A DNA stretch of 64,000 bases, taken from Thermotomaculum hydrothermale. Lineage in GTDB: Bacteria > Acidobacteriota > Holophagae > Thermotomaculales > Thermotomaculaceae. Made by a program: the position numbers and the translations under genes. Within the stretch, counting starts at the first letter, position 1. Each line of letters begins with the position of its first letter. Of the stretch, positions 42,038 through 59,493 are shown in pieces. The DNA lies in contig NZ_AP017470.1 in NCBI RefSeq assembly GCF_016592575.1, positions 1,510,501 to 1,574,500 on the forward strand. The letters run 5' to 3'. The notes below the pieces were generated by a model. That model saw nothing but the letters and a program-made list of their open reading frames with translations, did no database searches and was not told where the DNA came from.

Positions 42038-43360
42038 CTAATCCTTTAACAAAACAAGGTTGCGAATTCCCTTTTTGTATATCTGATGAAAATAGATATT
42101 TGCCGCTGCCCTTCCTAAAATAAAAGAAAGTGCCGCAGCGTGCGCTCCAATTAAATTCATTTTTAGAAAAACAAGCATTAAAACCACAATTGATACAAAC
42201 TCAACAATTGTGCCATATGTTATATGCCTCGTTAAAGCAGCATTTACAAGAACACTTCTCTGCCATGAGATTAAAATGCTTAAAGCAGGCAATAGAACAA
42301 GAATGGATGCGGTTTGAACTGCAAGGGGTATTAAGTCTGGCGACAATCCGGCTACCTTCTGAAACCATAAATATCTTGCAGGGGTAAGCATTATTGCAGC
42401 AAGGGTAAAAGAAACAATTACCGAAAGCATAAAAACAAATGTTTTCAATGTGTTAAAGTTTTCGTCATCGTATTTCATTAAAGCAACACCCACTTCCTGG
42501 AAAGAAAGCCCCATGCTCCTAAAGATAAAAATAAAAGAGGTAACAACAGGCAAAACCGCAAGGGAATCAAGGGCAAGCCTGCTTTTTGCAACAAAAAAGG
42601 TAACAATAGGCTGAACACCTAAGGCAATAAAAGAGGTTAAAGCAAGGGGGATATAAAAAGTTGCCAGATAACCATAGGTAAGATTAAAATCACTTTCTGT
42701 TTTTAAAACTCTATCTTTTATAATTTCGTAAGTCATTGCATATATAACAAATGCCTCAAAAATCACAGCAAAGGAAAGAGATATTGCGCCAACATAAACA
42801 CCTTTAAAATTGGTAAAATTTGCAAGTAAAAGGGTTGAAATTATGACAGTTAGAATCCTGATTACAGTACCATAAGCAATTCTTTTTGTTTTATTGTTTG
42901 CAATTAGAATTCCCTGATAAAACCTTCTAAAACCAATTGCCGCAGGCCAGGGGAGTAATAAAGCAGTTGCATGGTATACAAGAATGGCAAGTCTTTTTTC
43001 CAGCCCCATAAGGGTAATGGTAATAAAATTAAAAACCTTAGGGATTAGAACAATCCCCATAATTAAAGTGATTAAAAAGTTTAAAAGAAAGGTAAAATTA
43101 CGCAATTTTTTATAAGATTGCCTGTTTTTCACAAGTGCTGTTGAGGCTGTCATAAGCATAATAATTGGCGCTTCAACTATTAAAGCAAAAGAAAACGCAA
43201 TTCCGTATGCAGCAAGGTTATATTTAGCATCACTTAACCTTGCAATTACAGCTGTAGTGTATGGCCCCTCAAAAGACATCATAAGCCATGTCAGGGCAAT
43301 TGGGAACCAGAATTTGAATATATACTTTAAAGTCAACTCACCTTTTTTCATCAAAATCAA
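42038..43360 (-). CDS. Multidrug/oligosaccharide-lipid (MATE/flippase-like) membrane protein
   Basis: 440 residues with about 12 hydrophobic helices in two similar halves, each starting with a loop ahead of F/Y-x-P-I/L-A-L-T (FWFPIALTW; FYIPLALTS). This layout fits the MOP superfamily. It lacks strong MATE-, MurJ- or Wzx-specific motifs that I can place, and ANKH-like exporters are another option. Convergent with the repeat lipoprotein gene. Substrate unknown. Confidence 0.75.
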   Translation of the reverse strand: MILMKKGELTLKYIFKFWFPIALTWLMMSFEGPYTTAVIARLSDAKYNLAAYGIAFSFALIVEAPIIMLMTASTALVKNRQSYKKLRNFTFLLNFLITLIMGIVLIPKVFNFITITLMGLEKRLAILVYHATALLLPWPAAIGFRRFYQGILIANNKTKRIAYGTVIRILTVIISTLLLANFTNFKGVYVGAISLSFAVIFEAFVIYAMTYEIIKDRVLKTESDFNLTYGYLATFYIPLALTSFIALGVQPIVTFFVAKSRLALDSLAVLPVVTSFIFIFRSMGLSFQEVGVALMKYDDENFNTLKTFVFMLSVIVSFTLAAIMLTPARYLWFQKVAGLSPDLIPLAVQTASILVLLPALSILISWQRSVLVNAALTRHITYGTIVEFVSIVVLMLVFLKMNLIGAHAAALSFILGRAAANIYFHQIYKKGIRNLVLLKD

Positions 43361-43471: not shown

Positions 43472-43500
43472 TTGACTTAATTCTTTTTTTATCCAATAAT
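43472..43500 (+). promoter_or_regulatory. Strong promoter upstream of the helical-repeat gene
   Basis: TTGACT (43472-43477), 17-bp spacer, AATAAT (43495-43500); five of six matches in each box. Transcription would start near 43507, giving a leader of about 55 bases that contains two hairpins. Confidence 0.65.
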
Positions 43501-43506
43501 TTAAAA

Positions 43507-43555
43507 AGGTAGAAATACCTCCTTGCAATCTGGCAGGTTTTACCTGCCCTTTTTT
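43507..43555 (+). terminator. Attenuator-like leader: small hairpin plus terminator directly before a start codon
   Basis: Hairpin 1 is AGGTA-GAAA-TACCT (43507-43520). Hairpin 2 is GGCAGGT-TTT-ACCTGCC (43532-43548), a 7-bp GC-rich stem followed by CTTTTTT (43549-43555). The next ATG is at 43561. TACCT occurs in both hairpins, so AGGTA could pair with either, allowing alternative folds. There is no upstream plus-strand gene to terminate; either regulated attenuation or a roughly 50-base small RNA would explain it. Confidence 0.65.
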
Positions 43556-43560
43556 ATTGG

Positions 43561-45330
43561 ATGGTTAATATGGAACTATTTGAAAGCCTGTCTCAGATTG
43601 AGCAATCCTACTTAAAAGTTTTAAATCAAATGAGAAGACAGGATTTTTCCGACAAAGAGTTAGGTTTCGTCCTTAATGTAGCAAGGTTTACTTCATCCCC
43701 TATTTTGCTTGCCTTTATTATGGCCTGTCCAAAGTGGTACAACAGGCCTGAGATAAAAGAAGTGCTTTCCCACCACGAGTTGATACCATCAGGTTTAAAA
43801 AATTACTTTAGAAAGGTTTTAAGTGTTATTGACCTTTTCAAACAGGCGGGGCAATCTCAAAACCAAGAGGAGAAAGAAAAATTACTCTTAAGAGCAAAAC
43901 TGATAATTGATCATCTAATGGATATAGACAAAGAATTTCTCAAAAAATACCTTACAAAATCATTAACTGAAAAGGGTTGCCCAGAGACAGACGAAGCTTT
44001 TCTAAAAAAGGTTCAAGAGGTCTACGAAAACTACTTCCAGAAAGAAGAATCGCTCTCAATAGATGAAAAAACTATAGAAGAGAAAATTATAAAGGCAAAA
44101 ACCTCTACGGACTCTAAAGAGTTGATGGCTCTTGCTTTAGATCCTGATAGAAGGGTATGGGAAACAGCTATATCTAACAGATACCTTGAGGAAAAAGAGA
44201 TAATTGAAGTTTTAAATAAAACTGATAAATCTGAAGTAATTACCTATATTTTCAACACTCCAAGGTGGTTTTTCAAAGAATCGGTGAGGAAAGCTATTGA
44301 AAATCATAGTGCAACTCCTGAAGCTGTTAAATTTTCTATAAGGAAGAGTGAACATGTGTTAACACTGTTTGAAAAACTTTCAAAACTAAAGAGAAATATT
44401 TCAGAAAGGGATAAAACAATAGAATTAATTGTTGATGAACTAAAAACCTGCTCTGAGCTTGAACTTCAATACATTACCGTTGGTGTTAAGAGAAGATGGC
44501 CTAACTTGCTCAACATTATAAAGATTGTTTACAACTTTATGGATAAAAAGGGGTTGTTTGAGAGAGAGACAATTGAAAAAGAAATTGAATTAAGCCAGAA
44601 ACTTGAAGAATCAGATATATTTAAACTTATCCAGAGAGCAGCCTTTTCTAATGACCCGAAAGAATTGGAAATGCTAATAAACTATAATGATTTAAATGTA
44701 TTTAGGAATGCCCTTGCAAATCCCAACTTAAAAAGAGAAAACTTAATCCCTTTTATTCATTCTTTTAATACAAGAAAGCTTTTAATTCTTGCTAATTCAC
44801 CGAAATGGAATAAAGACATAAAAGTTATCTCAACAATGCTACATAACAAAAACCTCCCTGAACAATATGGGCTAAAGTTTGTAAAGGAATTAACAGATTT
44901 AAAAGACTTGCTTGATGTTTTAAGAGATAAAAAGATTGCCTCTATTGAAATCAAAAATGTTGCATACTCTACCCTTTTGAAAAAATTTAATGAAATGTCC
45001 AACTATGAAAAGGCAAAGTTTATTATTGATACAAACGGAGAAATTTTTAGAGAGCTGTGGAGTGTTATATTTAACGATGAAAAACTGCTCGAAACTCTTC
45101 TTACAGAATTTAAGCCAGGAGAAGATGTTGTGGCAAGAATAGTACACTCAAGGCTTACTCCTGTATCTATTCTAAAATTAATTATAGAAAAAGGAATTCA
45201 TTTAGACAATATAGCAGTGGTAATTGAATTTTTCTCAAACCCCAAAACTGGCTTATCCTTGCAGGAGCAATTATTAAATAAAATAAGCCCTGAAATAAAA
45301 GAACAATTAAAAAAGAGAAATTTGATTTAA
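43561..45330 (+). CDS. Helical-repeat (HEAT/leucine-rich-variant-like) protein
   Basis: 589 residues, almost all helical, with no signal peptide. Repeating two-helix units contain patterns such as ALDPDRRVWETAISN, FNTPRWFFKESVRKAI and ALANPNLKRENLIPFI, similar to HEAT or LRV repeats. A charged coiled segment lies at about 150-185. Such scaffolds bind proteins. The ATG at 43570 is an alternative start. No clear ribosome site separates the start from the terminator hairpin, so expression is probably controlled by that leader. Function unknown. Confidence 0.75.
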   Translation: MVNMELFESLSQIEQSYLKVLNQMRRQDFSDKELGFVLNVARFTSSPILLAFIMACPKWYNRPEIKEVLSHHELIPSGLKNYFRKVLSVIDLFKQAGQSQNQEEKEKLLLRAKLIIDHLMDIDKEFLKKYLTKSLTEKGCPETDEAFLKKVQEVYENYFQKEESLSIDEKTIEEKIIKAKTSTDSKELMALALDPDRRVWETAISNRYLEEKEIIEVLNKTDKSEVITYIFNTPRWFFKESVRKAIENHSATPEAVKFSIRKSEHVLTLFEKLSKLKRNISERDKTIELIVDELKTCSELELQYITVGVKRRWPNLLNIIKIVYNFMDKKGLFERETIEKEIELSQKLEESDIFKLIQRAAFSNDPKELEMLINYNDLNVFRNALANPNLKRENLIPFIHSFNTRKLLILANSPKWNKDIKVISTMLHNKNLPEQYGLKFVKELTDLKDLLDVLRDKKIASIEIKNVAYSTLLKKFNEMSNYEKAKFIIDTNGEIFRELWSVIFNDEKLLETLLTEFKPGEDVVARIVHSRLTPVSILKLIIEKGIHLDNIAVVIEFFSNPKTGLSLQEQLLNKISPEIKEQLKKRNLI

Positions 45331-48300
45331 TCACTCAAACTTTCAAAAATTACTCTTTTAAAATCTTCAAGCAGATAAGGTTTAGGCAGAACATTTACAA
45401 AACCCAGCTTTTTAAACTGAGACATGGCAGCTGAATGTGCATAACCGCTTGAGACAACAACCTTTACATCAGGGTCAATTTTCTTTAACTCTTTTAATGT
45501 TTCCTCTCCACCCATCCCACCAACAACTGTTAAATCAACAAAAACAATATCAAACCTTTCACCTCTATTAAGTGCATCTTTATACTCTTTTACAGCGTCT
45601 TCTCCATTGGCAACACATACTATGTTGCAATTTAAAGCATATGCAAAATCCTCGGCAACATCCCTTACATCTTCTTCATCATCCATAAAAAGTATGTTCA
45701 AGCTTGAAAAATCAAAATCCTCTATAGTCTCTTTCCCACCTTTTTTGAGAACACTATGGGGAACATCTTTCTCTTCAATTTTTACAATTTTTGGTTTAGG
45801 TTTTTCCTCTAACCCTTCTTTTACAGGCAAATAAATATGAAAAATTGCTCCACCTGATGGATTATTTTCAGCGGTTATATATCCTTCATGTTTTGAAATT
45901 ACAGAATATGCAACTGCAAGACCCAGCCCTGTACCGTATTTTTTGGTTGTAAAGTAAGGCTCAAAAATTCTTTCAAGAATCTCATGGGGAATACCTGGGC
46001 CATTATCTTCAATCGTTATATGAATATATTTTAGATATTTCTCTTTTAATGGCAATGAAGCATACTTTTTTTTATCGTAGAAAAAGTTTTCTGCTTTTAT
46101 TGTAATTGTTCCTTTGTTTTTTAAAACATCCCTTGCATTGGTAAAAATATTATTAAAAACCTGTTCCAGCTGAGTGGGATCTGCTTCAATTGGATACAGA
46201 TCAGGAGCAATTTCAAAAATTGTCTTTATTGAACTGCCTGCAAGGAAAAGATTTGCCATATTTTTCAGAAATTCTCCCACATTTTCAATTTTCTTTTTTA
46301 TTGGTGCTCCTCCTTTGGCAAAAGTCAAAAGCCTTTGAGCCAATCCTGTTGCCTTCTTTAAAGAAATTTGTGCCCTTTCAAGAATAGGTTTTAAATCATC
46401 AGACGCCTTAATCAAAGCTAATTCAATATTACCCTGCAAAACTTGTAGTAAATTGTTAAAATCGTGTGCAATACCAGCAGCAAGGGTAGCCAGTGATTCA
46501 AGTTTCTTCTGTTTTACAATTTCTCTTTTGTAAATCTCATGTTCGGTAATATCACTTATTACTACAATACCCCCTAAAATTTTTTGATTAATCCTGACAG
46601 GAGAGCCTGAAACAGCGACAAAAAGCTCATCTCCATTATCTTTATAAAGAAAAAGCTTATCATTCTGATAACCTTCAATAATTTCTTTAAAACTCAGGGA
46701 AACTTTCTTAATTTCCCTTGTGCCTAATTCATCCTCAAAATAAAAAGAAAGCACCTCGTTGCAATTCAGGCCTACAAGATCCTTCTCTTTCTGGTTAAAC
46801 AATTTTTCCGCAGCCTTGTTCACTATACTTACTCTTCCCTTTTCGTCAAGGACAACAACTCCTTCCGCAATGCTTCGTAAAGTTGCGGCAAGCTTTTCTT
46901 TTTCCTGTTTTAGCCCTTCCTGGTAAACCTTTCTTGGGGTTATATCAATGGCAGTACCTAATGCTAATTTTCTATTTTTTATCTCTATGTGATCAGCAAC
47001 AAATTCAATCCATCTCACTTTGCCGTCTTTTCTTACAATCCTGAACTCGTATGATTGCGGGACTTCGTCTCCTTCTAACCTCTTTAATCCCCTTTCTTTC
47101 ACAAGCATCTGTTCTTCCGGGTGAACAACCTCCCAGAAATGCATTTTTAACATCTCTTCTTCTGAATAGCCTAATATCTGACATGTTGCTGGATTCACAT
47201 ATTCAAAATACTCGCTATAAAGGAAAACAGCAGCTTTGGTATTTTCTGCAAAAGCCCTGAACTTCTCTTCACTTTCCTTTAATTTTTCCTGCAATTTTAC
47301 CTCTTCGTCTATATCATGCACAAGGGCAATAAAATATTTTTCACCCTTTAAAACCACCACACTTAATCTGACAAATATCCAGAATGACCTTCCATCTTTG
47401 GATTTTGCAATCCAACGAAAGCTGGTTAACCCATTTTTTAATGCTTCCTCTAAATAATTTTTAAACAGGTTTTTTGAAAATGTTTCATCACTTAAATCCA
47501 TAACATTCATATTTTTTAATTTTTCTTCTGAATATTTAAACATTTCAACAAAGCTTTCATTTACCTGGAGGATATTCCCCCCTGAATCCATTAAAACAAA
47601 CCCATCAGGCATCGATTTTAATAGTATGCTTAACTCCTCATTAACCTCGCTTAATTCATCCTCCCTGCTTTTTATTGCATTTACCATCTTTTCTATCTCA
47701 TTTAGAAGTTTTCCAAATTCTCTAAATTTCACATCTCGACCAATAGCATCATACTCATACTTACCCTTTTCAACCTCCTCAATAGCATCACTTAATATTT
47801 CAAATGGAACTAATATATAATTTTTAATTAAATACCTGCTTCCTATTAACATAATGATTGTAAGCACAACAATCAAACATAGCATTAGCAATATATAAGA
47901 ATTGACAAAACTCTTTAACCTTTCTTTAGAATAAAGAATCTCCACAGCACCTATTTTTTTATTATTAAAAAAAACAGGCTTAATAATTTTTTTACTCAAT
48001 TCTGCGGGAATTGCCTCTTTAGAATATGGAGAAACCCAGGAAATAACAGTTTTACCAGCATCATCAAAAACACTAACTGCATACACATCTTTGTTTTCTG
48101 CAAAAACCTGAGTATATCTCCCTACTGCGTCAAAATCATAACTCCAAAGGGGATATGCAATTACATTTGCAAAAGATTCAGCATAACTGTTAATCTCCTT
48201 TAAAAATGTTTTATTCTTTTGAAAATATGAAACCCCCATAAAAAGAAAACCGCTTATGGTAAAAGCAACAAGTATTTGAACAAGGTAGGCTACTGAAAAT

Positions 48301-48335
48301 TTATTGAGAATAGAAGGGACTTTGCTCTTTTTCAT
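45327..48335 (-). CDS. Multi-PAS hybrid histidine kinase with receiver domain
   Basis: About 1002 residues. Order: transmembrane helix (about 13-33), periplasmic sensor, second helix (about 145-168), HAMP linker, three PAS/PAC domains (about 230-610), phosphoacceptor H624 in AHDFNNLL, ATPase domain (DNGPGIP, FEPYFTTKKYGTGLGLAVAY) and a C-terminal receiver (FMDDEEDVRD, IVFVDLTVVGGMGG, LPKPY). Hybrid kinases pass phosphate His-Asp internally and need an output partner, none adjacent. Start 48335 (ATG, GAGGTG upstream) is preferred to GTG at 48341. It overlaps the convergent gene by 4 bases. Confidence 0.93.
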   Translation of the reverse strand: MKKSKVPSILNKFSVAYLVQILVAFTISGFLFMGVSYFQKNKTFLKEINSYAESFANVIAYPLWSYDFDAVGRYTQVFAENKDVYAVSVFDDAGKTVISWVSPYSKEAIPAELSKKIIKPVFFNNKKIGAVEILYSKERLKSFVNSYILLMLCLIVVLTIIMLIGSRYLIKNYILVPFEILSDAIEEVEKGKYEYDAIGRDVKFREFGKLLNEIEKMVNAIKSREDELSEVNEELSILLKSMPDGFVLMDSGGNILQVNESFVEMFKYSEEKLKNMNVMDLSDETFSKNLFKNYLEEALKNGLTSFRWIAKSKDGRSFWIFVRLSVVVLKGEKYFIALVHDIDEEVKLQEKLKESEEKFRAFAENTKAAVFLYSEYFEYVNPATCQILGYSEEEMLKMHFWEVVHPEEQMLVKERGLKRLEGDEVPQSYEFRIVRKDGKVRWIEFVADHIEIKNRKLALGTAIDITPRKVYQEGLKQEKEKLAATLRSIAEGVVVLDEKGRVSIVNKAAEKLFNQKEKDLVGLNCNEVLSFYFEDELGTREIKKVSLSFKEIIEGYQNDKLFLYKDNGDELFVAVSGSPVRINQKILGGIVVISDITEHEIYKREIVKQKKLESLATLAAGIAHDFNNLLQVLQGNIELALIKASDDLKPILERAQISLKKATGLAQRLLTFAKGGAPIKKKIENVGEFLKNMANLFLAGSSIKTIFEIAPDLYPIEADPTQLEQVFNNIFTNARDVLKNKGTITIKAENFFYDKKKYASLPLKEKYLKYIHITIEDNGPGIPHEILERIFEPYFTTKKYGTGLGLAVAYSVISKHEGYITAENNPSGGAIFHIYLPVKEGLEEKPKPKIVKIEEKDVPHSVLKKGGKETIEDFDFSSLNILFMDDEEDVRDVAEDFAYALNCNIVCVANGEDAVKEYKDALNRGERFDIVFVDLTVVGGMGGEETLKELKKIDPDVKVVVSSGYAHSAAMSQFKKLGFVNVLPKPYLLEDFKRVIFESLSD

Positions 48336-48355
48336 TCTCACCTCTTAGTAATTAA

Positions 48356-58519: not shown

Positions 58520-58617
58520 GGAAGCGAATGGGGGCTGGTGTCCCCCCCGGTCTTCAAAACCGGTGGGCCTATACGGGGGTATAGGTCGGTGGGTTCGATT
58601 CCCACGCGCTTCCGCCA
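58520..58617 (+). tRNA. selC: Selenocysteine tRNA (anticodon TCA)
   Basis: 98 bases. Acceptor GGAAGCG/CGCTTCC with encoded G-CCA, a long D stem (GGGGG/CCCCC), anticodon stem CCGGT/ACCGG with loop CTTCAAA (anticodon TCA, 58554-58556), a long variable arm (CCTATAC/GTATAGG) and T arm GTGGG/CCCAC. These are diagnostic of tRNA-Sec, which reads UGA with SelB. The organism should therefore encode selA, selB, selD and at least one selenoprotein outside the window. Confidence 0.97.
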
Positions 58618-58638: not shown

Positions 58639-59493
58639 ATGAAAAAAACATTTTTATGGATTCTTGCTTTTTTGATTACAGTAACCCTTGCCATATATCA
58701 AAAAAGAACAGGGCCAACCTACCCTGTTTCAGGGCATTTAAAGATTGACGGCGTAAAAATTGACTATACCTTTAACAGAAGCCACGGGGGGCCTGGAGAC
58801 CAGGAGGTAAGCATTTTCCTTGAAGGGGACAAACCTATCTCAGCCTATCTTGTTTACAAAAGGTACAGGGTTAAAGAAGACTGGGTGGAAGTGAAAATGC
58901 AAAAAATAGGCAAAAATTACACAGCATTTTTGCCCCACCAGCCACCAGCAGGAAAGTTAGAATACTATGTTAAGGTAAATATTGACGGAAAGTACTACAG
59001 TATCCCTGCAAAAAGCGTGGTTACCAGGTTTAAGGGTGCCGTGCCATTATACATTCTCATTCCCCACATAATCTTTATGTTTTCTTCATTACTGTTGTGT
59101 GTAAGGATTGGGCTTGCTTTAATATTCAAAGAGCCATACAAAAACCTTGTTTACACCTGTGTGGGATTATTCTTCATTGGTGGGTTAATTTTAGGCCCAA
59201 TTGTTCAAAAATTTGCCTTTGGGGAATTGTGGACAGGCATTCCCTTTGGCTGGGATTTAACTGACAATAAAACACTTATTGCCTTTTTATTCTGGCTTCC
59301 GGCACTTTTCTTTTTAAAGAGAGAATACTCAAAGAGAAGCATTGTCTCAACAGCAATAGCCATAATTGTAATGTTTTCAATATATCTAATCCCCCACTCT
59401 GTCTGGGGTTCTGAATTTGATTACTCAAAGAATCAGATAACAACAGGAAAGAAACCTGCTGTTATTGAAACAAATGAAGGGGAAAACCAATGA
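58639..59493 (+). CDS. Membrane protein with periplasmic beta domain
   Basis: 284 residues. N-terminal helix (about 4-20), then a beta-rich periplasmic domain (about 30-130) with YPVSGHLKIDGVKIDYTFNR and LPHQPPAGKLEYYVKVNIDG. Three or four more helices follow (about 138-160, 167-188, 210-225, 236-252). Orthologues exist in several phyla, as far as I recall, without assigned function. It overlaps the epimerase gene by 4 bases. Confidence 0.75.
   Translation: MKKTFLWILAFLITVTLAIYQKRTGPTYPVSGHLKIDGVKIDYTFNRSHGGPGDQEVSIFLEGDKPISAYLVYKRYRVKEDWVEVKMQKIGKNYTAFLPHQPPAGKLEYYVKVNIDGKYYSIPAKSVVTRFKGAVPLYILIPHIIFMFSSLLLCVRIGLALIFKEPYKNLVYTCVGLFFIGGLILGPIVQKFAFGELWTGIPFGWDLTDNKTLIAFLFWLPALFFLKREYSKRSIVSTAIAIIVMFSIYLIPHSVWGSEFDYSKNQITTGKKPAVIETNEGENQ

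Follow-up and report, generated by a model that had tools for sequence, protein, structure and literature searches.

A 49-nt leader RNA that ends in an intrinsic terminator precedes the gene of a solenoid protein, and promoter, leader and terminator are conserved as one unit in front of this gene, the arrangement expected of transcription attenuators in general. On balance, the leader seems to be a 5′ transcription attenuator with an H1-H2 antiterminator, the default product of which is an RNA of about 49 nt. From the sequence we infer both termination in vivo and regulated read-through. The features lie in the window, which is the whole 64,000-nt stretch of DNA that was analysed:

43472-43477, forward strand: -35 element TTGACT, of which TTGAC is unchanged in all nine family genomes
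43495-43500, forward strand: -10 element AATAAT, separated from the -35 element by a 17-nt spacer
43507-43520, forward strand: hairpin H1, AGGUA-GNRA-UACCU, constant save for the R of the tetraloop
43516-43529, forward strand: UACCUCCUUGCAAU, made of the 3′ arm of H1 and the linker, unchanging in the family alignment
43522-43537, forward strand: alternative hairpin H2, CUUGC/GCAGG with loop AAUNNG or AAUUG, a candidate antiterminator
43532-43555, forward strand: intrinsic terminator, GGCAGGU-NNN-ACCUGCC followed by U6, arms constant save for the closing U-A pair
43559-43564, forward strand: likely Shine-Dalgarno sequence GGATGG, between terminator and ATG
43570-45330, forward strand: gene of the solenoid protein, 586 residues, all-helical

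The promoter is of the sigma-70 type, and its -10 equivalents (AATAAT, TATGAT or TATTAT) are found 6-7 nt upstream of the leader in each of the nine genomes. Because the -10 box sits 6-7 nt before H1, the transcript is predicted to start at about 43506-43507, at or just before H1, and to measure about 49 nt when terminated. An earlier note on this DNA had described a TTGACT-N17-AATAAT promoter, which is present at 43472-43477 and 43495-43500, as well as a GNRA-capped hairpin, a 7-bp GC stem and a T6 tract. These are likewise present: H1 at 43507-43520 (AGGTA-GAAA-TACCT in the DNA of the window), the terminator stem GGCAGGT-TTT-ACCTGCC at 43532-43548, with five G-C pairs out of seven, and the T6 tract at 43550-43555. 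In a simple scan, promoter-like matches (12 observed, 11.7 expected) and terminator-like matches (4 observed, 2.7 expected) both occur at chance level, and conservation must therefore carry the argument. A stricter scan of the 64-kb window retains two intergenic terminator-like sites, 43532 on the forward strand and 58728 on the reverse strand; canonical intrinsic terminators are very rare throughout positions 1-64000. The hairpin at 58728 lies near a selenocysteine tRNA gene (58520-58613; Rfam RF01852, 76 bits), on the opposite strand.

The start codon had been placed at 43561, six bases past the terminator, with no ribosome site between the two. Both points had to be revised. Orthologues begin with the ATG that corresponds to 43570 (protein identity of 77-89% in the genus of the window and mostly 44-45% in the sister genus), and the purine-rich GGATGG at 43559-43564 separates terminator and ATG. 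Its counterparts are GGAAGG or GGACGG in the genus of the window and AAAGGGG in the sister genus. Only 10-14 nt extend from the U-tract to the ATG, too few to hold a second promoter. With this constraint, and with the terminator placed between the conserved promoter and the open reading frame, transcription of the gene is expected to rely on read-through. Within the leader, no start codon preceded by a ribosome site, such as a leader peptide would require, was seen.

Conservation was assessed in nine genomes of the family, which belong to two genera; the named copies are from Acidobacteria MAGs, and the genome of the window is a single contig of 2.3 Mb. A covariance model finds one strong copy of the leader (74-81 bits) in each of the nine, and its best other matches do not exceed 28 bits among 93 genomes of the class and 396 sampled genomes of the phylum. 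The 28-bit phylum match (L066) is a different terminator. A search for extra copies within the genome returned just the one leader, and the weak model matches that were inspected are plain terminators or coding-like sequence. The exact core pattern, searched in 84,980 species genomes, occurs only in the eight relatives and in one further genome, from Bacteroidetes (L085), where it was discarded as a chance match antisense to a coding gene. Viral contigs yielded no occurrence of the pattern, and similarity to plasmids and phages was limited to short chance matches. The gene behind the leader is the same in all nine genomes, and H1 starts 60-63 nt ahead of its ATG. When the two genera are compared, the leader has a mean identity of 0.90 and the first 240 nt of the gene one of 0.56; the value falls to 0.40 in the 40-nt promoter block and to 0.19 in the adjoining 100 nt upstream. 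One other family of the class, presumably Holophagaceae, also carries the gene; there the orthologue (about 22-27% identity) lies directly behind another open reading frame, without the leader.

The leader appears as an undescribed and strongly conserved RNA of a little-studied acidobacterial lineage, for which we found no RNA work. The statement that it matches no riboswitch class held, as no Rfam 15 family reaches its gathering cut-off. The best sub-threshold match is sroB (RF00368), also known as ChiX; it is similar in size and order of elements, and at 21.3 bits (cut-off 44, E 1.6) is far under the family threshold and probably a chance resemblance. The earlier proposal of either a new attenuator or a small RNA of roughly 50 nt gains from the single-copy conserved leader, the promoter start at H1 and the terminator before the open reading frame, which do not separate the two.

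Within the leader, 41 of the 50 alignment columns are invariant, loop and linker bases included. The variable positions are the R of the GNRA tetraloop (GAAA or GAGA across genomes), the base before H1, two linker bases beside the terminator, the terminator loop and the base after the terminator stem. The closing U-A pair of the terminator is lost in two genomes, and all other paired bases are invariant in both genera. The earlier note had made its reading hang on conservation of the stems, and these are all but invariant. No covariation was seen in the family alignment because the stems hardly vary, and the folds therefore rest on energy and placement. The arms of H2 (CUUGC, 43522-43526; GCAGG, 43533-43537) are fully paired in all sequences. 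In the predicted folds, H2 makes use of the 5′ arm of the terminator, so that the two are mutually exclusive. When growing prefixes of the leader are folded, H1 forms, then H2, and the terminator displaces H2 once its 3′ arm is made; the predicted energies are -4.5 kcal/mol for H2 versus -11.3 kcal/mol for the terminator. Random linkers fold as well as H2 in 3-9% of cases. Another antiterminator, suggested earlier and formed by AGGUA of H1 with UACCU of the terminator, was abandoned, as its terminator-side bases are lost in other genomes. An outer stem of ATCCAATAA and TTATTGGAT (43491-43499 with 43554-43562) improves the fold of a longer strand; it was dropped because the left arm coincides with the -10 region, before the predicted start, and because the sister genus lacks the stem.

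The attenuator would operate as follows. RNA polymerase would start at about 43506, and the nascent RNA would fold H1. Either H2, as antiterminator, or the terminator would then form. By default the far more stable terminator would win, releasing the RNA of about 49 nt, whereas stabilization of H1-H2, or any other block of the terminator, would permit read-through into the gene of the solenoid protein. The trigger might be a small molecule, a protein or a second RNA, or else the product of the gene itself.

Near-invariant terminator arms are not needed by ordinary terminators, and as a feature of the sequence they argue for the attenuator. Since both these arms and the linker are invariant, a specific competing interaction is favored over a fixed leak, and an attenuator with an H1-H2 antiterminator over other readings. 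Against it, H2 is weak in the folding models and could be a chance helix, constitutive leaky termination would look alike, and the seed of a trans-acting RNA would also show invariant sequence. We consider it quite unlikely that the terminator is simply constitutive and leaky, keeping expression of the downstream gene low in an unregulated manner. The default folding does favor termination and there is no known trigger, but a stem and a U-tract would suffice for this purpose, not 41 invariant columns out of 50 with loop and linker among them. Less likely still, to the point of being very improbable, is that a repressor binds the conserved block as a DNA operator. The palindromes AGGTA-N4-TACCT, at +1, and TTGCAA are indeed at an operator-like position beside the promoter. 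However, the loop is GNRA throughout (GAAA or GAGA), every genome has the terminator with its U-tract exactly at the end of the element, and the columns that vary lie in predicted loops of the RNA, in the linker or beside the terminator stem.

A more serious rival, though we hold it to be clearly the less probable one, is that the main product is a trans-acting sRNA of about 49 nt that blocks the ribosome sites of other mRNAs, with the gene fed by leaky read-through. The 3′ arm of H1 and the linker together spell an anti-Shine-Dalgarno sequence, and ACCUCCUU, the textbook anti-Shine-Dalgarno sequence, is partly hidden in H1. The layout of an sRNA would comprise a protective 5′ hairpin, UACCUCCUUGCAAU as anti-Shine-Dalgarno seed and a terminator tail suited to binding by Hfq. 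The linker and the anti-Shine-Dalgarno stretch are invariant, as this reading would have it, and Hfq is encoded, above the curated cut-off, in seven of the nine genomes. Moreover, each of the four sister-genus genomes has a small gene for a predicted secreted protein with CCAATTGCAAGGAGGT across its ribosome site. This sequence is a perfect complement of the leader over 16-17 nt, with changed flanking bases, and the duplex is predicted at about -29 kcal/mol. In these four loci (L090-L093) it lies some 20 nt ahead of the gene start, for example at L090:1480-1500, and the gene is directly behind a TPR/HEAT-like gene. No such target gene turned up in the genus of the window, however, and among the genomes compared we saw no further ribosome-site match to TTGCAAGGAG that recurs. 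A 12-nt perfect anti-Shine-Dalgarno match at the ribosome site of sufU (NifU/SufU-like) in the genome of the window (L080, 2277081) was set aside, as it has no exact repeat in relatives. Anti-Shine-Dalgarno sequences also match ribosome sites generally, and the sRNA reading leaves the invariant terminator arms and the tie to one gene unexplained. The attenuator and sRNA roles may both be true. A class of dual-function leader RNAs, with a non-ANTAR dual-hairpin antiterminator in cis and, in trans, an anti-Shine-Dalgarno seed opened through a toehold that shuts other ribosome sites, is nonetheless an improbable reading in our estimate; under it the solenoid protein would be controlled, possibly by autoregulation if it binds RNA.

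The predicted folds of the leader resemble the RNA targets of the ANTAR proteins EutV, AmiR and NasR, which are tandem short hairpins, the second of which overlaps the 5′ arm of an intrinsic terminator, with hexanucleotide loops that carry A at position 1 and G at position 4 (PMC3369931). The leader similarly has two short hairpins, the second overlapping a terminator before a gene. Unlike these targets, it has a GNRA loop in H1 (read as the hexaloop AGAAAU, it lacks G4), and the H2 loop, AAUNNG or AAUUG, has C or U at position 4. An ANTAR-domain gene was detected in none of the nine family genomes; of 99 genomes from the phylum, 9 were positive in the same search. The RAT antiterminators of BglG, SacY and LicT also use an alternative hairpin that overlaps the terminator, but each is a single stem-loop of 29-30 nt (PMC3369931), whereas the leader packs two short hairpins and a terminator within 49 nt. 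Short RNAs that arise from the leader of a downstream gene are also known from E. coli, which is another lineage: ChiZ and IspZ come from 5′-UTRs and function in trans as sRNA sponges (PMC7815308). The anti-Shine-Dalgarno sRNAs αr14/NfeR1 of rhizobia share an ultraconserved anti-Shine-Dalgarno motif with the leader; they differ in having three hairpins with CCUCCUCCC in unpaired regions (PMC10746234), whereas here a single ACCUCCUU, partly within H1, belongs to the leader of a gene.

No Pfam or NCBIfam family was assigned to the solenoid protein. Its structural model is an all-helical solenoid (mean pLDDT 85.4, pTM 0.42). PUF RNA-binding domains top the list of structural matches, with Z-scores of about 8, and HEAT and armadillo proteins are also present. 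We did not derive a function from these matches, as Z-scores up to 8 are the background of helical repeats; because the PUF match does not rise above this background, autoregulation is only an idea. Downstream, the end of the gene overlaps by a few bases a convergent gene for a 1,004-residue multi-PAS hybrid histidine kinase (45327-48341, reverse strand), and the end of a similar kinase adjoins the solenoid gene in L004. Upstream of the promoter lies a divergent gene for a MATE-family transporter (42038-43360, reverse strand).

A terminator leader so compact, at about 49 nt, and so invariant points to a specific binding partner. Once found, this partner would define a new antitermination or sRNA system and would give a first clue to the role of the solenoid protein.
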